64,000 nucleotides of DNA, from assembly GCA_001599595.1 (NCBI GenBank), contig BCHH01000017.1, positions 201,054 to 265,053 on the forward strand. Reading direction: 5' to 3'. Source of the stretch: Beverwykella pulmonaria (Eukaryota; Ascomycota; Dothideomycetes; Pleosporales; Melanommataceae). Positions within the stretch are counted from its first letter, which is position 1, and the number at the start of each line of letters is the position of its first letter. Under the pieces are notes generated by a model that saw nothing but the letters and a program-made list of their open reading frames with translations, did no database searches and was not told where the DNA came from. Both the position numbers and the translations under genes were made by a program. This document shows, in pieces, positions 5,088 through 62,730 of the stretch.

Positions 5088-8000
5088 ATGTCGTCCAGAG
5101 TGACTCGCTCTTCTGCGAGGCTTTCCACAGGTTCGACCACCTCCAACCCGCCGACCCTCCCCGCCGCCGACCCTCCGCCGACCCATCCTCCTCCACCGCC
5201 CCCCTCTCGCAAACGCAAGGCTGCTGCTCGAGAGCCCAGCCCCGAACAGCCCGAAAACACCCAGACACCGCCGGTTCGGGGCGGCCGTGCAAAGCGGACA
5301 CGAGTAGAGCACCAAAACCCTCTGGCGCCTGCCCCAACATCGGGCCGCTCGAAGAAGGGCAAAGCAAAATCGGCAATGTCCAGTGCTGGGTAGGCGTTTC
5401 CCCTGCCGTCTGCCACGCGTCTGCTAATCGAGTCCAGCCCCTCTGGAGAACCGTCCGAGGACAAAGCCGCCACACCCACCCGACCTGCTTCGTCATCGAA
5501 ACGCACCAAAGCGGGCCGAAGGAGCGGAACCCAAGGTGACGACTCGCGGCGGCAGGTCAGATCGTCCCATACTGAACCGAACGTAGATGCCACACCCACG
5601 AATCCGTCTTCAGGCTCCCGACGAAGCTCACGAAAGTCGGCACCAAAGCTAGAGGAGGACGTTTCCATGGAGGATGCACCTGAGCCGAAGCCCGAAGGCG
5701 AGCCGCGGCAGTCTGGCTCAGACCAGGCTCGACCCGAGACGAGTGATGACGGCAACGGAGATGGCCCGCCCGGCCGGTACGATGAGGAAGAGGACGACGA
5801 CGATGATGATGACCCTTTCAGCGGCGCAGGGTTTCTAGGCCGGCACCCACATGGTTTATCGCAGCTGCGTCACCTTACTGGCATGATGTCCCACGCCAAC
5901 AGCCGGCTGCGTGGAATTCTGGACCAATTGAAATCCAAGGATCCATCCATGCAGCTCATTGCCTTGCAAGATCTCTCCGAGGTTCTGCTCATATCCACAG
6001 AGGACAACCTCGCGGGCAACTTCTCTCCGGATGCGTACGTGAAAGAGCTCGTTGCTCTGATGCAGCCGAGCGACTTCGGCGAGGAGAATCCAGAAATGAT
6101 GCTGCTTGCGTGCCGGTGTCTCGCAAACATGATGGAGGCCCTGCCAGCTTCTACTGCAAACGTTGTATACGGGGGAGCAGTTCCTATATTGTGCTCAAAG
6201 TTGCTAGAGATCAATTTCATTGACTTGGCGGAGCAATGCTTGAGCGTACGCTGAACCCTATTTCTTCCGAGAATATGATGATATGCTAACCATTTTGCAG
6301 ACACTGGAAAAAATTTCCGTCGAGTTCCCTGCCTCCATTGTGCGTGAGGGGGGGTTGACTGCCTGTCTCACCTATCTTGACTTCTTCGCCACGAGCACGC
6401 AGCGGACTGCCGTTACGACAGCCGCAAACTGCTGTCGAAACATTCCAGAAGAGTCCTTCGCCACAGTCCGAGATGTCATGCCTATTCTGAAGGACATATT
6501 GAACAACAATGACCAAAAAGTCGTGGAACAAGGCTGTATTTGCGTTTCGAGGATTGTCCAGAGCTTTAAGCATCACGAAAGCAAGCTGGAAGAGCTTGTG
6601 AGCCCCGAGCTGCTCCGCGCCATTCTCGGATTGCTTCTGCCTGGCACGACGAATCTGATTGGGCCCAACATTCACACGATGTTTCTCCAGGTGCTTGCGT
6701 ATACTGCAAAAGCGAGCCCGCACTTATCGGCTGAATTGTTCAAGATGAACGTAGTCGATACCCTGTACCAAATTCTAACCGGCGTGTCGCCACCAAGCGG
6801 TACAGAGGACGTAGCTGCAAAGATTGATAGCGTGGTGATTATGCAAGCGCTCATCCACCGACCAAAAGACCAAGTCTTTGAGACTCTAAATGTCATTTGC
6901 GAGCTGCTTCCCGATGTGCCCAAAAATGGCCTGATGTACCTGGACGACCTCTTCGACGCAGGCTGCCCAGGTGATGAGCAGCAGCCACTCTCCACACCCA
7001 AAAAATCCGCCAATGAAACGCGAGTTGAGCTGCTTCGGGAGTGCAAGCAAGAAGTTAGGCGATTTGCAGTCATCCTCCTTCCCACACTCACAGATGCGTA
7101 TTCAAGCACTGTCAATCTCAGTGTCCGGCAGAAGGTGCTCACCGCACAGCTGAAGATGCTTTCAAATTTAGACACGGAAATATTAGAGGAAGCGTTGCGT
7201 CCCGTACCATACGCGTCGTACCTGGCTTCGATATTCTCTCAACAGGATCACGCCTCCCTAGTCACCTATGCACTGCAAGCTGCTGAGTTGTTGCTGAAGC
7301 GTCTCGAGCCTATTTATCGATACCAGTTCTACCGAGAAGGTGTTATCTCGGAGATTTCACAGCTTGCTAATCGTCCCTGCAAAGCCGTGGAACCCCGAAA
7401 AGACCCCAAGGCGGCCATCGAGGTTGAGGCAGTTGCCAATTCTGGCACAAGCTCTAGCTCGGCTGGCGATATTGATGTTGATGTCGATGTCGATGTCGAT
7501 GTCGATGTCGATGTCGACCACGAAGTTCCCGACGAGGCTGAGATGGATATGCACTCAGACGAGGACGAGGATGAGGATGAGGATGAGAACGAAAACGAAC
7601 ATGACGAGGACCAAGCTGATCATAGCGATAATCGAGAAGATGATGATGACGACTCGGACTCTTCCTCCTCCTCTGAACGATACGCCCCTCCACCAGTCCC
7701 AAATATCGAAGATATCATCACGCTTCGGGCTAAGAGGTTTATCGAGGTTCACGAGAAAGATAGCACAAAATCCGTTCGGGACAAGGCATTGGGGATACTG
7801 GACGACCTCAAGACCCTCGCCAAAGAGATCAAAACATGCGTCCTGGAAGATGGAGGCAATAATTGCCTGGAGCTGTTCACTCGCTTGGCAGCATATTTCG
7901 AGGGAGATGCGCTGGAGAGCATCACAAGCTATGAATTGATGACGTCAAGCATCGTAGAAGTCTTATTGGAGGTATTTTCTGCCCCTAATTCCTCCAAGGG

Positions 8001-10941
8001 CATTGATCCCCGATCCGTCTTTCTAGAAGCTTTCATGGGCTCAAACAACCCGAGCAAGATCAAGACCACGAGCAACTCTTCTCCGGCCACGCCTTTCAGC
8101 GTTTTGACAAGCAAGCTCCAAGATTTGCTTAGTCGGGCTGAACACTTCGAGGTGATCACGGTCCACCAACACTCATACGACAGCAGAGGCAGTGCCACCT
8201 CTATGTTGGCCAAGCAACTACGTCTGAAGCTCATGGCAGATGACGATTCAGGTATACCCAAGACGTACCGGAACATTATGGTCTCAATCCATGCTATCGC
8301 GAATTTCAAAGCGTTGGATGACTATTTGCGACCACGAATCAGCATCGCCGAGCGGCCGTCCCGTGGCTCCAGGAATAGAGATACGATTAATGCATATACC
8401 CAAGCCCTCTCTGAAGGAAATTCTCCAGGTCCTCCCCCTCCGCATACTCCCAATGAGACCACAAATCGAGCTTCATCTCGGAAATCTTCTAAGCCAAAAC
8501 CTGCAGCATCTTCAACTGGATCACAAGCTGGTCCAAGCTCCGCTCCTCAAGACAAGACGCGTCGCTCCAGCCGGAGGCACCAGACACAAGCACCTCCACC
8601 TCCCCCGCCTCCACCACCAGCGTTGCCCCCATCCAATACCGACCAGGATCCTGTTGAATGCGCGGATGAGGAACGCCTCTCTGAGCAAGACTCCCTAGAC
8701 GAGCATGGCGACCTGGACGCTATCATGGGCGCAGACATCGATGAAGATATGGAAGATGAGACACCTGATCCGTCGGCGGTCAGCGTCGAGGTTGCGTCAA
8801 CTGGGAAGGTGACAGCCCGTAAGGAAGACGGAACGAGGGTTGCCACCCCTGTGCAAGGACAATCGTCTACTCGACAAACTCCAGTGGAACGGCTGGCAAG
8901 TTCTAGTTCACGATTGTCTGCTTTGCTCCGTGGATCTGCGCTGCAGCAAGCATTTGGCACTTCGGCTGGTGCGCACTCTTATGCTGCAGCTTTACAATCT
9001 ATCCCACAAGATTGGCATATCGAGTTCAGCGTCAACGATCAGCCGATCTCAAATGAGACGACTATCTACCGTGCTGTGCACTTCAACCAAGCTCAACCAC
9101 CAGACATATCCCACCGAACTGTTTGGAATGCCATTCATACTATCAAGTTCAAACGCGTCTCTGGGCCCCCACCACCAGAGTCCAGTGCCCTGACTCCTCC
9201 ACCGGAGCTTTCCAAATCAGGGGTTTCAGGGATGCCACTTTCGTTGGAGAAATTCCCCGTCACTTCCGGCATTCTTCGGTTGTTGAGTATCCTCCACGGC
9301 CTCAATTCCAACTTGGACGATGTCCTATCGGACAATCGGGAACAGATCAAACTCAACGTAGAGCCACTTTCGCAATTCGTGAATACCAAATTAACTGCTA
9401 AGCTCAACCGACAGCTAGAGGAGCCCTTAATCGTGGCAAGCAACTGTCTACCCAGCTGGAGCGAAGATTTAGCTCGCCTCTACCCATTCCTGTTTCCCTT
9501 CGAGACGCGACACCTCTTCCTTCAATCAACGTCCTATGGGTACTCTCGGTCTATGACCCGATGGCAAAATTCCCAATCAACAAACGATTCTAGGCATGAT
9601 CGTCACCGTGAGGAGCGTCCTTTCTTAGGAAGGCTGCAGCGTCAAAAGGTCCGCATATCCAGGACACGAATTCTAGAGTCCGCAGTAAAGGTTATGGAAC
9701 TATACGGATCGTCTCCGAGTGTTCTCGAAGTTGAGTATTTCGAAGAGGTTGGTACTGGCTTAGGGCCTACTTTGGAGTTCTACTCGACCGTTTCAAAAGA
9801 GTTTTCAAAGAAGAAACTCAAGCTTTGGAGGGAGAACGAATCTCCCAATGATGATGAGTACGCTTTTGGGAAACGCGGATTGTTCCCCGCTCCCATGAGC
9901 GCCGAGCAAGCTGAAACGGAGAACGGCAAGAAGGTGCTGCACTTGTTCAAGATGCTCGGCAAGTTTGTGGCCCGATCGATGCTTGATTCCAGAATCATCG
10001 ATGTGTCTTTCAATCCAACGTTCTTCCGCATTGGCGATGGTAGTGCGACTGTCGCCCCTTCACTCGGATCCATTAGATCCGTAGATCACGATCTGGCCAA
10101 GTCACTCTTACTTCTGAAGCAATTTGCAGATGCGAGGAAACAAATTGATGAGGATTGCAATCTGGATGCGGCGCAGAAGGTCCAAGCCATCCAAAACATC
10201 GTGATTCAGGGCTCCCACGTCGAAGATTTGGGCATAGACTTTACGCTTCCTGGGTATCCTATCGACCTTGTCGAGAAGGGATCAGAGAAGCCTGTAACGA
10301 TTGACAATGTGGAAGCTTATGTGGACAAAGTCTTGGATTTCACTCTCGGTTCAGGAGTGCAACGTCAAGTGGATGCGTTCCGTGCAGGGTTCTCCCAAGT
10401 TTTCCCCTACACGGCCTTGAAGGCCTTCACACCTGACGAGCTTGTAATGCTATTCGGCAGAGTTGACGAGGATTGGTCCCTTGAGAGTACGTTTCTATTC
10501 TCTTTCTAGTTGATGGTGGAAAATAGCTAATCAACCGCAGCCCTCATGGATTCTATCAAGGCCGACCATGGATACAATCTTGATAGCAAGAGTGTACGCA
10601 ACTTGTTGCAGACCATGAGCGAACTTTCGGCTACACAGCGCCGGGACTTTCTTCAATTCATCACTGGTAGCCCCAAGCTTCCCATTGGCGGTAAGCTCTT
10701 CAGTACCCTTTAGCAGCCGCATTCTGATACTAATATCATACCAGGCTTCAAGAGTCTGACGCCAATGTTCACGGTCGTCTGCAAGCCGAGCGAGCCGCCG
10801 TACACGTCTGACGACTACCTCCCCAGCGTTATGACTTGTGTCAACTACCTGAAAATGCCAGATTATAGCAGCATGGATATTCTTCGAGAGAAACTGAATG
10901 TTGCTATCCAGGAAGGCCAGGGTGCTTTCCATCTTTCTTAA
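5088..10941 (+). CDS. ufd4: HECT-type E3 ubiquitin ligase, UFD4/TRIP12 family
   Basis: Giant ubiquitin ligase of the ubiquitin-fusion-degradation and N-degron pathway. Exons are 5088-5389, 5438-6245, 6301-10486, 10541-10690 and 10745-10941 (1880 residues); all four introns are 48-55 bases with GT-AG ends. Residues 1-235 are Ser/Pro/Arg-rich and probably disordered. From about 240 an armadillo-like helical region begins ([18 protein letters not shown]). A hyper-acidic stretch follows at about 755-830, including an Asp-Val repeat (bases 7474-7518), then a Pro-rich linker. The C-terminal HECT domain starts at about 1515 ([15 protein letters not shown]) and ends with the catalytic cysteine in [12 protein letters not shown], near residue 1847. 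Yeast Ufd4 is shorter; filamentous fungal and TRIP12 proteins have similar long linkers. The ATG at 5088 gives a basic, nuclear-localisation-like start ([10 protein letters not shown]). Intact. Confidence 0.95.
7474..7518 (+). repeat. In-frame GATGTC hexamer repeat inside UFD4
   Basis: Tandem GATGTC units (first unit GATGTT, last GTCGAC) encode alternating Asp-Val residues inside the acidic linker of the UFD4-type ligase. The unit length is a multiple of three, so expansion or contraction keeps the frame. A second short GATGTC array outside any gene is at 20087-20112. Confidence 0.9.
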
Positions 10942-11750: not shown

Positions 11751-13371
11751 ATGGTTGAAGATCTACACATTCTAGAAGCATGCGCTCCCTTCTGTTGCAC
11801 AACATCAAGCACTAACAGGTCACCAGCAAGAATTTTGCCCTCCGATAGACCCCGCGCTCGTCCACGCGATCTACTACGACTATGCGAACACGCCGGATTG
11901 CATGCAGCTGGCTAGAGCCATGCTAGGTGGCATAAAGCAAGCAGCGGATTCGGAGCAGTGGACCGATTTCGACCCGTCTGGGAGTAGTGGAGATGCTTTA
12001 CGGTCGAGCCCGGGCAAGCAAAGCGACGAGGAGTACACAAGCTTGTCAAACGACCTCTCATCGCTAAGTCTGGCGGGAGGTTCGGAATTTGAAGGGTCCT
12101 CGGAGGGCGGCTATTTCAGGGACACCGAGCACTTCGACACCCCCACAAAGGAATTGTTGCTTGCGGAAACATTCCCCACGCTACGGCCCGAATTTGTCGC
12201 ATATACGCTGAAGAAATGCAATGGGGAGTTCAGTAAAGCCACGGATGAGCTACTGAACCACGTGTACTTCGAATACTCACAGACAAGCCCCAGCGAGGAG
12301 GCTGTTGCCGTGAAGGGCGTGGATGCTTTTGCAGAAGAGTTCCACATGCCCCATCGCGGGAAGCAAGGCAAGGGAAAGAGGAAGAAAAAAGGGTCGCCAC
12401 TCCTGTACAACACAAGCCCGGCATCAGCTTCAGATTCTAATTTATCAACTCCGCCATCCAATAAGTGGCTGGACAGCAACCGAGATGTTGAATTCATCAC
12501 GTCCAGGACAAAGTTTGCAAAGACCGTGATTGCGTCGCTGTACCACCAAAATGGTGCTTCACGCCCAGCTACCATCATGGCAATAATAGAAAAGGACGTC
12601 ACAGAAAACCAGAAGGAGAAGGAGCCGGATGCTGCAATGGTTCAGGCAGCAATTGAGCTTACTTCAGACTTTCCCAGCATTGACCTAGATTACGCTCTTG
12701 CCCTCATTCGCATATCGGCACCATCAACCGCAAATGCGCACGAGCTCGCGAAGGCACTGACAGTGCGACCGGGTTTTGCAACAGACCCTAAAGGCGGCAT
12801 GGCAGTTATACCCCAATACGCACCTGTAGATCTCTCTGATACCACAACCGAGTCAACCAAACTCCCATCCCTTCCTGCGTCTGCTCTGCCCCAGACCACA
12901 GCGTCTCTCGCTGCGGCGCGTGGCGAAGCGTTCAACCAAGCCTCAGCCGCCTATCGCAAGGGGAAATCCACACCCATGATGAAAGCAGTAGCGGGTTACT
13001 ACTCCCAAGTTGGGCGCGATATCAACGCTAACCTCAAAGCCATGAACGAGACCGACGCAGACGCGCTCGTGTCCTCGCAATCCTCATCTCTTCACCTCGA
13101 CTTACACGGCGTCAGCGTGCAGAGCGCAACACGGATCGTGAAAGAGAGGGTTCAAATCTGGTGGGATGGCCTCGGAGAAGAACGAGTTCCTGGAGGTGGG
13201 CGAAGAGGTGTAGGCAACGGATATCGAATTATCACGGGGCTCGGACGACACAGTGAGGGTGGTAAAGCCAAAATCGGCCCCGCGGTAGTGAAAGCGCTGG
13301 TAAAAGAAGGATGGAAGATTGAGGTTGGGACCGGGGAGTTGCTTGTCGTGGGGCTTGCGAGGCGGAGGTGA
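11751..13371 (+). CDS. CUE-DUF1771-Smr protein, Cue2-like
   Basis: Predicted 523 residues. The order is a CUE-type ubiquitin-binding helix bundle at about 85-130 (ETFPTLRPEFVAYTLKKCNG), a low-complexity middle, a DUF1771 helix (AYRKGKSTPMMKAVAGYYSQ) and a C-terminal Smr domain (LHLDLHGVSV then ITGLGRHSEGG). In yeast, Cue2 with CUE and Smr domains is the endonuclease that cuts mRNA at collided ribosomes in no-go decay; a similar role is inferred here. The Smr LDLHGV and TGxGxHS motifs are present. The 5' end needs an intron: a CACTAAC branch site and an AG at 11826 lie just before the conserved EFCPPIDPALV block. The only donor that joins in frame to a nearby ATG (11751) is a non-canonical GC donor at 11778. 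That start is therefore less certain than the rest. Confidence 0.85.
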
Positions 13372-14930: not shown

Positions 14931-17600
14931 ATGAAATTTTCCACATCTATTGCCGTGGCGCTTGCGGCGACGCCCTTGGTCGCTGCTGCTCCGGCCCAAT
15001 ATCCACATGTCGCCAAGAAATGGGTGGACACCACTGGAGGGTTCTCAGGCAGCAAAGTCCCGGCTCACTACGTCGCGACTATGCGCAGCATTGCCCGTGA
15101 GAAGCTGAACCGCAAGCGACAACTCGATCAAATTCTTGGTGGGCTCACAGGCGGCGCCGGTGCCGCTGGTGGTGCCGCTGGCGGAGCTGCTGGTACATTA
15201 CTCCTTTCCTTCATCTATGATGTGATGATCGATTCTGACAATGAATAGGAGCTGCTGATCCCCTTGCGGGACTTCTCGGAGGTGCTGGAGGTGCTGGAGG
15301 TGCGGCTGGTATGTTATTCTTCCTTTCGTCTATGATGCGATTGTTACATCTGACACATGAATAGGAGCTGCTGACCCCCTTGCGGGACTTCTCGGAAAGG
15401 CAAAGGGCGCCGCCGGCGGTGCGGCTGCTCCGGCTGCTGCTGCTCCTGCTGCTGCTGCTCCTGCGGCGGCGGCAACCCCGGCGGCAACTGCTGCTGGTAT
15501 GTTCATCTTTTTTCTTCTATTTTATCACCTTGAGCGAACAGTTCGGGGAGGGAGCATAACAGGCCTCTGGTAGATATGGCAAAGAAAGTGGGGATGAAGT
15601 GATCTTTCTGCCTCTTTGCCAGTATCTCGTCATCGTTCCGTTACTCCCCAGACTCGAAAAGTTCGCGCGGAATTGATCACGAAGAGTACATTCTTGAAAC
15701 TCGATTTGCTGACTTGGGATAGCCAAAGGAAAGGGCAAAGCTAAGGCTGCCAAAGGCAAGGCGAAGGCAGCGGGCGCAGGTGCCGCACAGGCTACTAGTA
15801 AGTCAAACCACTCCTACATCCATCTTTTCATGGTATTGATTATATCACGGGACTTTGCTAACGACATCAAGGTGCCCCGCTTGCCGGTGCTGCGGCGACC
15901 AACGGAACGGCTGCTGCTGGTACGTTCTTCCTTCTCATCTCCACGTGCATTCAGGAGGCTAACACACAAATAGGAGCTGCCAAAGGAAAGGGCAAAGCGA
16001 AGGCAACTGGCGCTGGTATGATATCTTTCACCGCTTTTCTGGGATCTTCGTCTTATTTTGAATAGCTCTTCCAGCTGCTGCTACGCCCGCCGCAGGTAAA
16101 TTTCTTCCATTATCACTCCATTACGATTTAATTGACTAACTTGGATAGGTGCCGCTACGCCCGCTGCCGCTAAAGGAAAGGGTAAGGCCAAGGCCACTGG
16201 TGCTGCTGGTATGTTGCTCTGTTCTTTATGAGCTTGAACAAATAGGCTAATGTTTGTTAGCTCCAGCTGCTGCCACTCCCCCCGCCGCCGCTGGTAAATT
16301 TCTCTCTCAGAAACTCAGTTGAATGATTGACTGATTTGTATAGGTGCCCCGGCCCCTGCCGCCGCTGCACCAGCTGGAAAGGGAACTGGAAAGGGTGCTG
16401 CAGGCGCTGGTACAAAGCCTCTATTTTGTTTAGGAGGATAATAGACTAATTTTGAGCAGCCCCAGCCCCGGCCGCTGCCCCCGCTCCGGCCGCTGCCCCC
16501 GCTCCGGCCGCTGCCCCCGCTCCTCCTGCCGCAGGTACTGCAGGTATGTGTATTTTGCTCCCCACGTCATAGCGGAACCCAATACTAACCTGACCAGGTA
16601 CTGCTCCCGCTGCCGTCCCCGCCGCTGGTGCTGCTGGTAGGCCTTTTTCATTCTTTATAAGTCGTTGTTCAATTGCCTGACTTGTATAGGCGCCGCTCCT
16701 CGTCCCGCAGGTACTGCTGGAACCGCGGGAACTCAAGGCACACAAGGAACTGCCGGAACTGCCGGTACTCAGGGAACTGGGGTCCAGGGCACTGGCAACC
16801 AGGCTGGCGTTGGAGCCGGTACTCAAAGCACGCAGGGTACTACTGGTAAGTCTCTTCAATTTTCACCTCGGAAATATAGTATTGACGTTCGCTTAGGAAC
16901 CGCCGGAACACAAGGCACAGGCGTCCAAGGTCAAGGTCAAGCTGGTATCCAAGGCACTCAAGGCCAAGCTGGTAACCAAGGCACTCAGGGTCAAGCTGGT
17001 GTCCAAGGCGGTCAAGGCCAAGCTGGTAACCAAGGCACTCAAGGCCAAGCTGNNNNNNNNNNNNNNNNNNNNNNNNNNNNNNNNNNNNNNNNNNNNNNNN
17101 NNNNNNNNNNNNNNNNNNNNNNNNNNNNNNNNNNNNNNNNNNNNNNNNNNNNNNNNNNNNNNNNNNNNNNNNNNNNNNNNNNNNNNNNNNNNNNNNNNNN
17201 NNNNNNNNNNNNNNNNNNNNNNNNNNNNNNNNNNNNNNNNNNNNNNNNNNNNNNNNNNNNNNNNNNNNNNNNNNNNNNNNNNNNNNNNNNNNNNNNNNNN
17301 NNNNNNNNNNNNNNNNNNNNNNNNNNNNNNNNNNNNNNNNNNNNNNNNNNNNNNNNNNNNNNNNNNNNNNNNNNNNNNNNNNNNNNNNNNNNNNNNNNNN
17401 NNNNNNNNCAAGGCACTCAAGGTCAAGCTGGTATCCAAGGCGGTCAAGGCCAGGCTGGTATCCAAGGCACTCAAGGTCAAGCTGGGATCCAAGGCCAAAC
17501 TGGTGCGACTGGACAGGCAACTGGCACTCAAGGACAGACTGGTGCTGGTGTGACGGGTGCTAGGACCAACGCCGTTGCGGACGTCGAGGACGACGAGTAG
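14931..17600 (+). CDS. Secreted Ala/Gly-rich protein with collagen-like Gly-X-Y tail, 14 exons
   Basis: Predicted 596 residues, including about 119 inside the N gap. The start MKFSTSIAVALAATPLVAAA is a textbook secretion signal. Exons are 14931-15192, 15249-15308, 15365-15496, 15723-15797, 15872-15919, 15974-16015, 16066-16095, 16149-16208, 16261-16293, 16344-16409, 16460-16543, 16598-16636, 16690-16845 and 16897-17600. All 13 introns are phase 1 (usually splitting a Gly or Ala codon after its first G) and every internal exon is a multiple of three. The middle is Ala/Pro/Lys-rich with GKGKAKA blocks. Exons 13-14 encode Gly-X-Y triplets (GQA, GIQ, GTQ, GNQ, GGQ), a collagen-like pattern, ending in a short acidic tail (VADVEDDE). 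I know no named family. A wall- or surface-associated repeat protein is an inference. The exact exon set needs transcripts, because many alternative in-frame splice choices exist. Confidence 0.8.
17053..17408. other. Assembly gap of 356 N inside the collagen-like repeat
   Basis: The gap sits within the GQAGxQGTQ repeat of the preceding gene. Reading frame is kept across the stated gap length, but the true number of repeats is unknown. Near-identical repeats are the probable cause of the gap. Confidence 0.99.
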
Positions 17601-51342: not shown

Positions 51343-54300
51343 TCACTCTCCGACCTCTTTATTGAAAGTACTCCTTCCTGCCACAATTCTCCCAAGGCTC
51401 TCGAATCCGACACCACCTTGTATCTCGAAAAGAGCCACATTTGCACCAAACTCTTTGGCTAACCAGCTCCGCAATTCTACCGCCAGCAATGAGTCCACCC
51501 CGTACGCTACTAGCGGCTTACATACGTCGACTTCGCCTTGAAGGCTGGAATTTGTTTTGGAAAGTTTTCGAATTAATGCGGCCGTGATAAGACTAGCAAT
51601 GTCATGGTTTGCGGGGTCGGCGAATATGACTTTCCAGTCCTGGGATTTGGCTGAGGACGAGGCCGCAGCTGAGGGAGGTGTCGTGGCAAGATTACGGAAA
51701 ATGGGTTGGCGAGACGTTATGATCCCATCTTCACCGGTGCATAGGCCAATTATGGGCTGACTTTGAGTGGGATTCTGAGGCGGGAGTGATGGGTTGCAGT
51801 AGTAATCCATAATGGCGTTAAAGTAGGTCCTAGAGATGCCATTCAACGCGCCATAGCTTAGCACTCGACTTAGAAATTCGGGGTCTTCGGCGAGCAATCC
51901 ATCGTCAGTCAGCGCGCCCAGATCAAGTGATGTGGCTCGAAGACCAAGTGAGATACGGTGTCGCGCAAGAGCATCCATGTATGCGTTTCCGGCAGCGTAA
52001 TTTGCTTGGCCATGGAGACCAACAACACCCGACGCTGAGGCGATCATGACGAAAAAGTCGAGGTCATCAGGAAGGAGTTTGTGGAGGTTCCATGAACCGA
52101 TTGTTTTGCAGTCAGTCCCGAGGCGCCAATTTTCGTACGACAATTTGTCGAAAGTGAAATCCTAGAAAAAGTTAGCTGGCAGGTTTCCTTAACTAATCCA
52201 GATGATAAAACGAACTCTGAGAACCATGGAAGCTTGGACACATCCCTTTATCGGGGGCATCTCCTGGGCGCACTCTTCAATGACGGCCTTCAAGGCTTTA
52301 AAGTCAGACACATCGCATGCGGGCGCTCTGACCGTTACACCCCGCGCGTCGAGATCCTTCATGAGATCTTGAGCCAATTCTTTACACGGCCCAGAGCGGG
52401 AAAGCAGGAGTAGGTTCTTTGCACCACGATCTGCCAGCCATCTCGCCACGTTCCGCCCAAGCCCACCAAAACCCCCCGCAATTACATATGTCGATTCCTT
52501 GTCGATGGTGAAGCTGGGTATGGTGCGGAGTGTTGCCTTTATCTCTGTATCCTCGGTCATCTCTAGCACAATCTTCCCAGCCAATTTCCCCTCCTGCATT
52601 GCTCTAAATGCATCCTCTGCCTTGCTCAAAGGGAAAATGTGCAATGGTTTTGCCGGCCGGAGCACGCCCTCTTCGAACATGTCGAGAACCTTTTTGAACA
52701 ACTTTCTGTACAAATGTGGTCGATCCGCCGCGAACGCGAACCCGTCAAAACATATGAAACTAGCGTTCTGGCGAAACATGTACATGGGTAGGTTCGAGTT
52801 CTGGAGGATGTCCTTCTTTCCAAGCTCGACAAAGCGGCCATAGGGCGCAATGCATTCCCAGCTCGCAACTAGGCTTTCTCCAGCGAGAGAATTTAGCACG
52901 ACATCCACGCCATGTCCATTAGTTATGCGCATAACTCCTTTCGCAAAGCTAGTGTCGCGGCTGTAAAATATGTGGGACTCAGGAATGCCGTACTCCTCAA
53001 CCAGGAGCTGCCTTTTAGCATCTGAGCCCACAGTCGCGTAAATCGTTGCGCCAATGTATTGTGCCACTTGGATGGCTGCTTGCCCTGTCCCGCCCGCGGC
53101 AGTGTGAATGAGAATCGATTCGTCCGCTTGGAGCCGTGCGAGCTCATGGACTGCTTGCCAGGCTGTGCAGAATTGAGTGGGGATACTGGCTGCTTCAGGG
53201 AACGTCATCTTCTCCGGGATCTTTAGCACTCGATGGGCCTTCGTCCGTGCGAATGTCCGCAACCCAGGTCCAATGATTATGACGCGATCACCCGGACTGA
53301 CGTCGAGAGAGGGCGAGCCGACACGCGAGACGATACCGCCAGCCTCACTCCCGTTCATAGTGCCAGGGACGCGACCCAAAGCCACGAGGATGTCGCGAAA
53401 GTTAAGACCGGCGGCGCGCACCTCGATTTCCACGTCATCAGGCTCCAGCGGTTGGCTGTATGTATCGTCTTCGATGAAATGCATGCTGTCTAGGAAGCCC
53501 ACAGACCCGACAGCTAGCTGAATTGGAGGACAGAGTTTTAGTTGCTGTGCGATAGTACGTTGACTGAGCGTGCCCTGATAAACGTTCTCGGAGACATCCT
53601 TTGCCTCCACCACACGCGGTATATGAAGCACACCTCCTATTTCGATGTACTCCTGATCTTGCGTTGAAGGATCACGGAAAGACGAAATTGTCTGGAACAC
53701 CTGGTGGATGAGACCAACTTGATCGTCTGTGATTGTTTCTTTCAGGTCAAGTTTGAGGGTGGCATGGGGACAATCGGGACGTTCATTCCGGAGGACGCGG
53801 AAGAGACCATCGGCGACGCCAACTGCGGGACTTTGAGGAAGGAGGCCACCACCATTCGAAACCCATAATGAAGCTTTGCAGGTTGTCAACAGCGATTGCA
53901 GGCCAACGTATTCCCCTTCCGAGAGGTGCATGAGCATCTCATTTTCCAGCCCCTCAATGAAGATGAAGGTTGTATTAGCTTTATCCTCCAGGTGAGTGGC
54001 CTCCGATAAATTCATCATGTGATAATCAATAGATGCGGTGGATCCCAGACGTACACCTACTTTTTTTTGGAGGTCCGAGTTCAGATTTGCGATGATGATG
54101 GGTCTCGGTGTTTTTGCTTTACCATTTACACCATTCATCCCATTCGTCACTTTGGCAGCTCTGGCGACCATCACGCTACTCCCATGAAATCCTGGTGCCG
54201 AAAAATCGGGAATTTCCAGATCGATCCCACTGAACCCGTTCTTACGAAGTGCCTCGGTCCATGACGCTAGATTTAATGACGGAATCTCGGGCCCACTTTC

Positions 54301-57300
54301 AGGAAGAAGAGCAGAGATGAAATCCCTTCGAAAGGAATCAGCCCTGATGGTCTCATCTAGAATCAGGCGTCCCCCAGTCTTAAGTAAACTGCGGATATTT
54401 TGGAGAGCTGCATCAACCTTGTGGACGTTTATGCCAATAATATTTGAGGCAAACACAAGATCATAAGTTCCACTCTTGAAACCTTGGGCTGTGGGATCTT
54501 GGTCAATGTTGAATTCTCTGAATGGGACGTCGATATACTCGGTAAATTTAGGCGCGGACAGCATCCTAAAGCTCTCGTCCGAGCCAATTTCAAGTACACT
54601 CAAGTGCCGGTTTTTGTGAGCGACGGCATCCAAGTACCGGGTCAAACTGGAAATGCAGTCTCGAGAGTAATCAAAACCGTTCGATAATGCTTTGAGTATT
54701 TGGGTAGGCGGTTCGCGATACTGTTGCAAAACCGGCTCGGATGGCCTCGTTTGAGCGCTGTATGCGCACAGCTGATCGTTGTTCATAAGTTCAACATCTG
54801 GCTTCCATTCAAGATGATAGCAGGTTTGATTCTCATCGGATCGGCTTGTAATTGGAGCGGACACGTTAGCCACGATTGTCGATTGCAGGCCATCACCCCG
54901 TACCAGCACCTTACTACCTGACGCATTGAGGACCGAAATATCATATTCGGTGCCGCGCGAGTCATTGTTTTTCATCCAAGCGCTGGCCCTCACTGAATTG
55001 GCTTCAGTGCTTGATAGACCATCTTTTGATACCCACAGTTTTCGAAGCCCGTGAGGGATGGCCGTGGGAACTGTTGCGCGTCCTCCGTCAGCGAAGGCGG
55101 CGACGGTGAGGTGCAAAATGGCATCCAGGGAACAAGGGTGCACAATATGCGTCTGTGGATACGCTTCTACGGGCCATTTGTACAACTCAACGTCTGCTTT
55201 GCCTTGCCTATTTGCGAAGACACCGTTCCGGAGCAACTGGAATGACGAACCGAAGTCGAAACCGCTTTTTTGAAGGCATGCATACATTTGTCCATGCTCA
55301 AAGCCATGGCCTTCCGGGTCTACGATAGAAGCTTCACGGACGCGGCAAGCTTTAACTTCTTCTACTTTTTCCAAATCCGTGAAGATCTTTTCAGTCGTAC
55401 CCTCGAATAGACTCTTGTAGTGCACACGAATTGCCCCAGTGCAATTCTCAGTCCACTGCTCCCTATTGTAACAGAAGATACGGAATTCGGACCACGGCGC
55501 CTCATGACTCGACGACGATCGATTTTCACGAAGGCAGAGTTGTGTTTCGATACCATTTGATGTGCGAGGCACGGCAAGCGTGGAAAGGAACTGAACGTCC
55601 TTCAGTTCGAAGCCTTCGACCTCACGACCGGGAATTGCGAGCTGGTTGGCGGCTTCAATAGCCATAACGAGCATTCCCGCACCCGGGTAGATGGTAGTAC
55701 CGTTAATCTAGTGCCCGAGGTTAGATGTATATAAAATTCCATCGAATTTAAACGTACCTTGTGATCTTCAACCCACGGCATCTCAGCCACACGAATAAAA
55801 TTCCGCCATTTTGCTTCCGCCCTGTTCCAATCCGGGGAGGGTTTGCCCAGGAGATCGAGCTTTCTCTGGGGGTGTAGCCGAAACCTCTTAGATATGCGAC
55901 TTTCTTCCCAGTAAGCTTTTGAGTGGTTGAATTGATACTCAGGAAGGTTGCACAGCAGTTTCGGAGCCCCTGAGACTTTGTCTTTGACACAATTGACGGC
56001 TCCTAAATCAACCGCATATCCGTGGCAGAATAGTTGACCCATACTACCAAGAAGTGTCTTGAAGGGTGACTGGTCCCGTAACAGCATACTCTCATATCCG
56101 ACTTTGACATCGCTTGCAACTTTGCCCAGGATTTCACGCAGTGGACCTCTAAGCGCACCGTGGAACCCAATTTCGAGCATGAATGTGGCTCTTGAGTGGT
56201 TTCGATGGCTACAATCCAGCCGCTTCCACAACTTACGGTTCGCTTGGAACGTGAGCTTCTCAACTGCTGGCGAGAATCGCACAGGTGAAATCATGTTGTC
56301 CACCCAGTATTGTGCCTTGCGCAAATTCGATTCAAGCACCCACTCGCCTGTCACGGTCGACATCATAATGACCGCTTTTGGTGGCACAGCGCCTTCTTCT
56401 AGCGTTTTGATCGAGTTGTAATAAGGGTCTGCAATTATTTGCATTGCCGATGAATGATAGGCCATGTCAACGTTGAGCTTGCGGGCGAAGATTGCGTTTT
56501 GGGAAAGCCTTGTCTTGAGAAGATCCAGTTGGCGACAGTCCCCAGATATCGTGACGCTTTTGGGGCTGTTGATACAAGCGACGGTCAGTTTTTGCGCACC
56601 AGTCTCGGACGCCAACTCTTCGATATACGATGTTACATCTTGTTCAGAGAGAGCAACAGCCATCATGCCACCGAGATCAGCCTTGGATGCTGCAAGGTTG
56701 GAGGTATGGTATCCTCTGAAGTATGCGACTTTGACAGCGGAGCGGGCGCAGAGGGCGCCAGTACAGTAGCTAGAAATTTGTCAGGACGCAGAAGCTTGCA
56801 GCATGGTGAACAGAATGAACGTACGCAGCTGCAATCTCGCCACTTGAATGCCCAACGACCACGCTTGGGAAAACGCCAAAACTTCGAAGAAGATCAACCA
56901 ATGCAATCTGAACGATGGTCGAAAGCGGCTGACTAAATTCCGCGCGATCGATGTTGGATAGACTACTCGCCTTGTAAAGCTCGTCTGTTTCGTCAGTCTC
57001 TCCATTCTTCAAGCTTGTGGTGACTGAATAATACCTCGGAGATCCCATTGACACCCTAGTTCCATCAAGCACTCATGCGCGTTATCAAGACAGCGTCGGA
57101 ACACGTCGAATCGTTCGAGACAACGCAAAACACTACCTGGATATTGGGCTCCTTGCCCTGTAAAAATGAAGCACACTGCTGGATCTTCGGTCGACTTCTG
57201 AGGGCCCGAAAGAAGCGTCTTGAAGCTTTCCAGCTCTTTTGGAGATCCAACCACTGCCGCAGACCGCCAGGTGAAGGCATGTCGTCGTTCATTAAGAGTA

Positions 57301-60808: not shown

Positions 60809-62730
60809 TTATCCCAATTTGGACCAGCGCTTATTCCAAACCATTGCGACGACCAGCAGTTGTGCTGCAGCAAACGCTACTATAATGTTGTTTTGGTAGT
60901 TGTACTCTTTTGCAAACACGTGCAGTACTCTTTCTTTTCGATCTGGTGCGAGCATGTTGATAATAGTGGTGTCGCGGTCAAGTGCAAGCATCTCGTTCGG
61001 GGAGAGCAAGCCCACAAGCCCGTGCTTGAGTCGTGAATTGAAAACGTTGGAGACGATGGCTAGGCCTATGACACCACCGAGAAATCGGAACTGAATGAGG
61101 GATCCACCAGCAACGCCTACGCAGCAATCAGTCAGCCACCGTGTAGTAATATGATGTTTGGATGGACAACTTACCAATATTTCTGGATGCAACGATGAAA
61201 GGCGTCGCCAGAATACCAATGCCAAATGAAATACCTAGTCCAACGCCAGCAATCACTAGGAAGCCGTATGCACGGTCTGGCCATTCCGTGGTTGCGGGAA
61301 GTGTCGACAACAAGGCCAAGCCCACAACCTGTAGCGAAGCCCCGAGAATGAGGATATGGACAACAGCAACGCGGCGCTTGGAACCCATGATCATGGCAAG
61401 AAGAGCGCCGAACGCGGCACTGAATGTGTACGGCAGCAGACGCTCTCCAGCACCCAGTGGGCTAACTCCGCAAACGGTCTGCAAGCGCTGAGGCACGAAG
61501 ACAACGATTACGTTGAAAGGCATCCCAAGTAGAAATGTAGAGAGAAGAATACCCATCCATGGTCGGTCGTGCACAAATTCCCATGGCAGCAAAGGCTCCA
61601 CCTTGACGTCGCCGACCGCGATATACCACTCCCAGCCGACGAACACGATCCAGGATAGTATCGCGAAGATAACCAGAAGAACGGACCCAGGGTTCCCCCA
61701 GCCCTTGCGCAGCGAGTACTCCAATAGAACGGCGGAAAGTATCAGGGACCCAGCAAGAAGCATTGCAAGTCCAAAAAAATCGACTCTTTCCAATCCCTTA
61801 AGGCCGCCAGAGCGTCTAATTTGGTCCTTCGGTGTGTTTTGGTACGGGAATCCGTTGGGGATGCCAATGAAGAGAACGGCCATGACGAAGCATCCCGCGG
61901 GCAAGTTCAAGTAGAACACCCACCTCCATGAATCTGATTTGTTGATGAGCCCACCGAAGAGTGGGCCCATGAGCGTTGCAAGTGAGACGGCAATGGAGTT
62001 GAAGCCACCATACATTCCGAGTTTATCCTTGGGCACGAATTCGTACGTCATAACGGTTGCGAGCGAGTAGCACCCTGCTCCACCCATACCTTGGAATGCG
62101 CGACAGATGATTCTGTGTGGTCAGCAACAGGTAACGATAATGGCTCGAAGTGAGGAGCGTACAGTTGGGTCATTGTCCGCGATGCTCCGCAGCCGGCGGA
62201 CCATATTGTGAAGATGGCCATGCTCAATATAAACATGCTCTTCCGACCCCAAATATCGCTGAGCTTTCCCCACACGATGTTGAAACCTAGATGTGGCGTC
62301 AATTCTGATGAACCAATCTAAAAGACCCAGGACGTATCCTACCCATATACGTGACTAGATAGCCACTGACAACCCAGCTTGTTTCGCTGAAGCCTTGCAG
62401 ATCGTTGGTGATGGCCACGAGTGATGTCCCGACAATTGTAACTTCGAGGTTCACAAGAAGAAGCGACATGACTATTCCGAGTGTTGTGCAGTGTAGCCTC
62501 CATCCTGTGATGTAGCAGTCGGGGGGCGCATCTTCAGTAACAGGTAGGTCTAGCTTCTCCGGATCCTCGGTCGTCTTTGATTCCAGTGTTTTTGAATTTC
62601 CATTAGGTCCATGTTGCGCTCCATTAACCTCCTCCTCCTGTCCATCGTACACCTCGCCGGATGTCGAGGCTGTCGACTCCGGTTTCTGAATGTGCTGCAT
62701 CTCATACGTCTCTGTACTGTGGTTGTTCAT
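60809..62730 (-). CDS. MFS drug:H+ antiporter (DHA2, 14-helix type)
   Basis: Predicted 585 residues. Exons are 62730-62343, 62286-62163, 62112-61175 and 61116-60809; introns of 50-58 bases keep frame. The hydrophilic N-terminus (about 80 residues, Glu/Thr/Ser-rich) precedes the first helix (LHCTTLGIVMSLLLVNLEVT). Family motifs are present: DLQGFSETSWVVSGYLVTY, motif A as GKLSDIWGRKSMFILSM, CRAFQGMGGAGCYSLATVM, and SWRWVFYLNLPAGCFVMAVL. Length and helix count fit the DHA2 group, which exports drugs and fungal metabolites at the plasma membrane. It converges with the hydrolase gene at the edge of the PKS cluster, so export of, or self-resistance to, the polyketide is the likely role. Confidence 0.92.

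Follow-up and report, generated by a model that had tools for sequence, protein, structure and literature searches.

A single-copy gene with thirteen phase 1 introns in the fungus Beverwykella pulmonaria probably encodes a Kex2-trimmed, disordered protein of the cell surface or matrix

The window considered here is a stretch of 64,000 nucleotides from the ascomycete Beverwykella pulmonaria (contig BCHH01000017.1, positions 201,054 to 265,053), whose genome comprises 45.6 Mb in 31 contigs. At 14931-17600 (+) the window contains a gene of 14 exons that probably encodes a Kex2-trimmed, disordered surface or matrix protein rich in lysine and glutamine, the middle of which would have grown by small in-frame duplications and the tail by repeat slippage. 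An intron and the exon that follows it clearly appear to have been duplicated together at one point near the start of this array, and the putative processing site before the array is shared by every relative found.

The stretch of the gene was read directly, and the exons were then joined by script. From an ATG at 14931 to a stop at 17598-17600 there are 14 exons and 13 introns, 12 of them 50 to 74 bp long and one, intron 3 (15497-15722), of 226 bp, three to four times the length of the others. All 13 introns are in phase 1, cutting the codon after its first position, and the internal exons, of 60, 132, 75, 48, 42, 30, 60, 33, 66, 84, 39, and 156 bp, are each divisible by three. Across the 14 exons, wherever the sequence is readable, the frame stays open, and it ends at a single stop. 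An earlier note on this DNA had described 14 exons, 13 phase 1 introns, and internal exons of 30 to 156 bases in multiples of three, and the exon assembly reproduced each of these counts and bore out the description of the exons as symmetric (1-1). Because all of the introns cut the codon at the same point, exon pieces could be duplicated or lost with the frame intact. Retention would introduce a stop inside the intron for 10 of the 13 introns; intron 4 (15798-15871, 74 bp) is without a stop, but its retention would shift the frame, and introns 5 (15920-15973, 54 bp) and 13 (16846-16896, 51 bp) are in frame and stop-free. A search of the 45.6-Mb genome with the N terminus gave a single match at E<=1, and by this measure the gene is single copy.

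The introns are all of the GT...AG type, with a 3' end of TAG or CAG in 12 of the 13 and of AAG in intron 4, whose donor is GTAAGT and whose branch site is CTAAC. In 12 of the 13 a YTRAY branch motif is present, its A lying 9 to 11 bases before the 3' end, the sole exception being intron 6 (16016-16065), which carries CTTAT; a count test that allowed 6 to 22 bases gave 12 of 13, whereas 2000 shuffles averaged 2.3 and never exceeded 7. Same-register introns separated by open exons formed a chain of at most 10 on the strand of the gene, whereas the maximum was 3 in 53 other 10-kb strand-pieces (both strands of 20 pieces from the same genome and of 7 window pieces, two of these overlapping, minus the gene's own strand-piece; ~260 kb) and also 3 in 300 mononucleotide shuffles of 15150-16950. 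The chain search accepts any GT[AG], so that some donors lie one or more codons off the gene model, and it under-counts genes cut by the end of a piece. It does not choose the phase, as the phase 0 and phase 1 frames both gave 10, phase 1 being set by the ATG frame. Because of these branch-site and chain controls, the intron layout is, as judged from sequence signals, real and unusual for the genome within the ~260 kb sampled.

Exon 1 (14931-15192) encodes a signal-peptide-like start, a pro-region, a Kex2-type site (NRKR/QLDQILGGL, with the slash marking the predicted cut), and the first LxxLGGL unit. A homologue search from residues 18-75 found one relative, P0002 (E 5.5e-17), and a search with the resulting two-row alignment found 7 relatives at E<=1 among 292 candidates, 6 of them below 2e-9 (P0002 to P0007, E 8.6e-50 to 1.9e-9, with P0002 itself part of the query); the seventh, P0008 (E 0.28), is nearly identical to P0006 over their overlap. 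When residues 1-100 were used as the query, 7996 candidates swamped by low-complexity sequence were scored and none reached E<=0.001, and tblastn of viral and prokaryote contigs returned no relatives, as expected for a fungal gene. None of the relatives has a precomputed Pfam domain; two are labeled "hypothetical protein" and the others are nameless. KRQ is present in all 8 aligned rows, that is, in the window protein and 7/7 relatives, and a signal-like start is present in 6 of the 8 (5/7 relatives; not in P0006 or P0008), which strengthens the view of the earlier note that the protein is secreted. WVDT occurs in 5 of the 8 rows, with P0006 and P0007 varying and P0008 starting later. The window protein carries the signal-like start, WVDT, and the KRQ with an LxxLG-type unit by which this KRQLD family can be recognized.

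P0002 to P0005 match the window protein over its first ~75 residues and then differ, with which the earlier note's description of the protein as fast evolving is compatible; P0007 is without the middle of the pro-region and departs from the LxxLG-type unit. Short LxxLLG/Gly-Ala units recur past the KR site in most of the relatives, and the peptide of exons 2 and 3 scored above all 300 shuffles in five of them (P0002, P0004, P0005, P0006, and P0008), P0003 and P0007 being the exceptions. The introns of the relatives were judged from protein letters rather than DNA: the frames of P0002, P0006, P0007, and P0008 leave low-complexity sequence just after a glycine, where the residues fit a G/GTA donor, and a phase 1 intron may therefore be placed at this exit in all four. 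The picture that these comparisons suggest is of a family in which intron number changes and the pro-region is mostly kept. Searches of Pfam with exon 1 returned no family at E<=1 and those with the pre-gap protein and the tail piece none at E<=0.01, the PDB gave four matches by sequence with a best E of only 0.26, and Rfam gave nothing at the gathering score within the window. The relatives and the window protein may accordingly define a secreted-protein family for which no Pfam name was found, one in which the pro-region is conserved and the low-complexity body runs free, possibly a self-assembling biopolymer.

Along the chain, LxxLLG/Gly-Ala units are followed by KGKGKAK and PAAATPAA units, which small 1-1 exons encode, and then come the Gly-X-Gln tail and, last, an acidic stretch. 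Exon 4 (15723-15797) contains a lysine-rich KGKGKAK unit and is followed by exon 5 (15872-15919). KGKGKAKATGA units in exons 6 (15974-16015) and 8 (16149-16208) alternate with a PAAATPAA unit in exon 7 (16066-16095, 30 bp) and a PAAATPPAAA unit in exon 9 (16261-16293, 33 bp), and then come an Ala/Pro stretch and GKGTGKG in exon 10 (16344-16409), PAPAAA repeats written as an 18-bp tandem repeat in exon 11 (16460-16543), and exon 12 (16598-16636). Introns 7 to 12 lie at 16096-16148, 16209-16260, 16294-16343, 16410-16459, 16544-16597, and 16637-16689. In the mature part, from residue 63 after the KR, 414 residues are known, and among them there is no Cys, no Phe, Tyr, or Trp, and no dibasic site; they include 19 Lys, 29 Pro, and 44 Ser/Thr. 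G or A separates each lysine from the next in the KGKGKAK-type blocks that contain them, and in the four blocks taken alone dibasic sites were absent from only 0.02% of shuffles (P = 0.0002), whereas in the 150-residue region around the blocks the avoidance was not significant (7.5% of shuffles, P = 0.07). A P_proprotein domain, as in kexins, occurs once in the genome (E 4.8e-30). An AlphaFold model of the 87-residue N terminus, built with 8 rows, had a mean predicted local distance difference test score of 57 and one helix at residues 45-73, a low confidence that fits disorder without being proof of it.

These features suggest a scheme in which Kex2 would remove the pro-region at KR/QLD and the mature chain would stay disordered, its repeated lysines and glutamines making a cohesive cell-surface or extracellular-matrix polymer. 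The middle of the protein would have grown by in-frame duplication of small units, once clearly with an intron attached, and the tail would have lengthened on its own as 27-bp repeats slipped inside a single exon. Phase 1 is the phase most offered by Gly/Ala-rich coding sequence, and it makes the gain or loss of a unit neutral to the frame.

The clear case of duplication involves introns 1 (15193-15248) and 2 (15309-15364), both of 56 bp, and exons 2 (15249-15308) and 3 (15365-15496), each of which encodes an AADPLAGLLG unit, in exon 3 together with an Ala/Pro stretch. The segment 15206-15308 aligns to 15320-15427 with 80% identity over 109 columns, a pairing that crosses the intron-exon border: it starts within introns 1 and 2, takes in exon 2, and reaches into exon 3. 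The two introns agree at 45 of 53 aligned bases and the two exon starts at 31 of 33, and the observed score was reached in 0/1000 intron shuffles in which the exons and splice signals were kept fixed. One unit of intron plus exon thus appears clearly to have been duplicated. Against a library of 65 intron-like stretches, defined by motif in ~260 kb of the same genome, the best score of the 11 short introns was 8.0; introns 1 and 2 score 21.5 against each other. Within that sample, near-copy intron-like stretches lie on two different contigs (L011, ~6133, +; L024, ~8949 counted on the - strand; score 29) and may be a repeated element or a duplicated intron.

Beyond introns 1 and 2 the evidence is mixed. 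With that pair excluded, the 11 short introns had a mean z score of 1.51, compared with 0.47 (standard deviation, 0.20; 0/5000 draws) for the 48 library members with a GC content of at most 0.50 and 0.33 (standard deviation, 0.19; 0/5000 draws) for the 36 T-rich members; as a set they are therefore more alike, with that pair or without it, than the genome's motif-defined introns, in a test that can be inflated because false introns are present in the library and its T content is below that of the gene's introns (0.32 versus 0.38). This property of the library is one of several points that weigh against the reading proposed here. The best match of intron 11 is a library intron (score 4.0), ahead of every intron of its own gene (1.0). 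Under a strict control, in which donors and the last 16 intron bases were fixed and 13 unit comparisons were each shuffled 1000 times, 9 of the 13 did not fall below 2%, examples being exons 6-7 versus 8-9 (165/1000), exons 8-9 versus 10-11 (58/1000), exon 11 versus 12 (649/1000), and exon 4 versus 6 (754/1000). Those that did, uncorrected for the 13 tests, were the clear case, exons 8-9 versus 10-12 (13/1000), exons 7-8 versus 9-10 (6/1000), and exon 5 versus 7 (3/1000), so that the introns other than 1 and 2 appear weakly alike once splice signals are fixed. A two-exon period of one lysine exon and one proline exon had been suggested by eye, and 15976-16148 aligns to 16163-16343 with 68% identity over 192 columns; the period fell at the strict shuffle (165/1000) and at the register test, reaching only 2/20, 6/20, and 4/35 labelings. 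The surface or matrix location is suggested by amino acid composition alone. The earlier note's account of a collagen-like protein assembled from symmetric exons is weakened, since few of these exons code for Gly-X-Y: exons 2-12 code for Gly/Ala-, Ala/Pro-, and Lys-rich segments, and the tail grows as repeats inside the last exon. Its broader claim of growth by exon duplication holds for the one clear case and falters at the 9 comparisons that fail the strict control.

The phase uniformity that the earlier note linked to growth by exon duplication is present, and it too counts for less than it seems. Under equal phases, 13/13 introns in phase 1 would have p = 6e-7. Over the last 60 bases of exon 1 and onward up to the sequence gap in the tail, 63% of the sites after G are in phase 1 (p = 0.002 for 13/13), as are 68% of those after AG (p = 0.006), 80% of those after a G preceded by a non-G base (p = 0.05), and 90/90 of those after TG, in which case 13/13 is no surprise; CTG directly precedes 10 of the 13 introns. 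Uniform phase 1 is partly compositional because Ala and Gly codons start with G. Composition accounts for much of the uniformity, and phase-preserving duplication can account for more.

The same tallies bear on the strongest alternative, which we consider unlikely though deserving of real weight: that the introns were inserted into, or survived in, a repeat that had expanded independently, with GCTG/G sites giving them like phase and like flanks and with exon-intron duplication exceptional. The dominance of phase 1 at G-preceded sites and the failure of most unit comparisons under the strict control agree with this, as does the reading of units that lie in separate window exons (1, 2, and 3) through one frame in three relatives. 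P0002 and P0005, whose longest contigs are 20.6 and 92 kb, each have three LxxLLG-type units in one unbroken frame, and P0004, known from contigs of no more than 1002 bases that could derive from spliced RNA, carries GAANPLAGLLGK shortly after its exon 1 unit without a change of frame; these unbroken frames match the region where the window gene has introns 1 and 2. Independent insertion is harder to reconcile with introns 1 and 2 being copies of each other, the start of the following exon included. In the genome search, moreover, neither intron 3 nor the block 15180-15400 turned up a second time (the remaining introns were not searched genome-wide), so that these two show no sign of an introner family. 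Growth of the middle by small in-frame duplications remains the preferred account.

Two related possibilities concern what the exons do. It is rather unlikely that the gene is a fungal counterpart of micro-exon genes, arisen independently of animals, in which the lysine-rich and the proline-rich cassettes of a secreted matrix protein, each a 1-1 exon, would be skipped and copied to adjust how long and how charged the polymer is in one species. Slightly less probable still is that it works as schistosome micro-exon genes or aphid bicycle genes do, its frame-neutral exons being skipped, or swapped in evolution, to yield variants of a secreted protein. The layout is of the micro-exon type, with many short symmetric exons of one phase behind a putative signal peptide (judged by eye and from 5/7 relatives), and signal peptides and symmetric exons are likewise described for the schistosome genes (PMC4015677). 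The animal systems are families, however, and the N terminus has a single match at E<=1 in this genome; the known mature part has no cysteine, whereas bicycle homologues are described as backed by CYC motifs (PMC9168663).

The tail begins in exon 13 (16690-16845), where a Gly-Thr-Gln/Gly-X-Y part includes 8 perfect triplets (GTA, GTQ, and GTG), and continues in exon 14 (16897-17600) as 27/54-base tandem repeats of the GQAGIQGTQ type, followed by the acidic end ADVEDDE and the stop. It is not built from symmetric exons because it lies mostly within the last exon and grows by 27-bp repeats. A run of 356 N (17053-17408) interrupts the repeat inside exon 14. Uninterrupted Gly-X-Y runs of 8 triplets in exon 13, 13 before the gap, and 12 after it compare with a longest run in shuffled tails of 3.7 on average and 10 at most. 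Between the flanking glycine codons the distance is 360 bases, or 40 x 9, so that the repeat register is kept; the length of the gap may be right, measured rather than nominal, because the 9-base register spans it, although a random length would keep it 1 time in 9. Should the gap consist wholly of repeat and have its stated length, the last exon would contain ~65 triplets.

These runs are what speaks for a true collagen, whose tail would trimerize as a Gly-X-Y triple helix in the manner of a coat protein. We regard this as quite improbable. Proline and hydroxyproline in the X and Y positions stabilize the collagen triple helix, and the 25 readable exon 14 triplets (GQA, GTQ, GIQ, GNQ, GGQ, GVQ, GQT, and GAT) include none with proline and none with a charged residue, Gln and Ala being dominant. 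When the sequences before and after the gap are scored separately, the Pfam Collagen profile (PF01391) gives 24.6 and 22.5 bits, both below the cut-off of 27.2, and the unread gap could raise the score of the whole; the pre-gap protein has no Pfam match at E<=0.01. The protein is thus no more than weakly collagen-like, short of the description in the earlier note. Because the triplets are without proline or charge and the profile falls below its cut-off, we read the chain not as a collagen but as a secreted polymer, disordered and cohesive. One other place in the genome passes the cut-off, a Gly-X-Y-like frame (L028, G000:C5:2994772-2994906, -) that scores 27.4 bits with its neighbors and around which, over 3.1 kb, the in-register intron chain is 2 at most.

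Equally doubtful is a secreted effector that would enter host cells and whose lysine-rich blocks would take it to nuclei or nucleic acid, as in SP7-like mycorrhizal effectors. The secreted type, the construction from repeats, and the KGKGKAK blocks would suit this, and SP7-like effectors are described as repeat proteins at nuclear condensates (PMC11333574). The likeness to SP7 is drawn from descriptions, and the SP7-like genes are reported to have a conserved intron before the first repeat (PMC11333574). A model artefact or dying gene, with the intron chain a chance pattern in low-complexity DNA, is scarcely credible: the sequence gap, the AAG acceptor of intron 4, the absence of YTRAY from intron 6, and a model drawn from DNA without RNA allow for it, but the chain and branch-site controls, the frame open to one stop, and the N terminus conserved in relatives all stand against it.

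Elsewhere in the window, a HECT-domain ubiquitin ligase is encoded in an open frame of 1421 codons (6244-10506, +) that contrasts with the intron-dense gene nearby, and the upstream neighbor is a 489-codon frame with a DUF1771 match (11902-13371, +), which we take to be a Smr-type protein. Pieces of a reducing polyketide synthase of the fungal highly reducing type lie at 51343-56780 (-), with PS-DH, zinc dehydrogenase, and KR domains in 52192-55707, and a major-facilitator transporter lies at 61131-62120 (-); the synthase and transporter perhaps belong to a secondary-metabolite cluster.

Among known secreted proteins with Gly-X-Y repeats, MCL1 of Metarhizium is described as a collagen-domain coat protein that serves immune evasion and has been called so far unique to that genus (PMC7776561, PMC3334602), and another fungal collagen-like protein, of the BclB type, is mentioned elsewhere (PMC6293661). 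MCL1 and the window protein are both fungal and both contain Gly-X-Y, and they are likened by description only, not by sequence. Kex2-processed repeat proteins are also secreted, repetitive, and provided with KR-type sites, and a survey of them applied a rule of at least three repetitions (PMC6339444). The window protein, unlike these, has one KR site before its repeats and 0 dibasic sites in the 414 known mature residues (the gap being unread), and on that rule it was rejected as a member of the class.

The exon layout has its closest counterparts in animals. Micro-exon genes of Schistosoma mansoni are described as mostly having a signal peptide and many tiny symmetric exons whose excision is neutral to the frame (PMC4015677). 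The window gene shares the signal-peptide-like start and the many small symmetric exons; it differs in being one gene with exons of 30-156 bp, whereas the genes of this animal parasite number dozens, fall into families, and produce isoforms. Schistosome micro-exons are smaller than the exons of the window gene. Aphid bicycle genes, which are putative secreted effectors, are reported to have many small internal exons, almost all in phase 2, and ~17 exons on average (PMC9168663). They are likened to the window gene by exon layout; the latter is in phase 1 and encodes a low-complexity Ala/Gly/Lys/Gln protein with a cysteine-free known mature part. Both are animal systems, and the comparison is one of analogy, with no sequence kinship claimed.

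Fungi have a different known route to many recent introns. Introner-like elements are described as near-identical, present in hundreds of copies, and inserted in unrelated genes (PMC4457414); those of Dothideomycetes are likewise a fungal route to many introns, whereas the clear similarity in the window gene stays within one gene. In Zymoseptoria tritici, intron duplications, for example in tandem within a gene, are given as <1% of single gains (PMC4457414), and because of this rarity a clear within-gene duplication has some value. In potato, a tandem duplication spanning an intron-exon border has been reported as a source of intron gain (PMC4974935). A literature search over titles and abstract openings, within a limited collection and set of terms, showed no same-phase exon array in fungi among the papers listed. 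Animals are known to build modular, variable secreted proteins from arrays of short exons in one phase, and a fungal case, with relatives in which the units seemingly lie in one exon, could reveal whether the repeat came first, the intron came first, or both arose at once; if no exon is skipped, the gene would still show how base composition alone biases intron phase.

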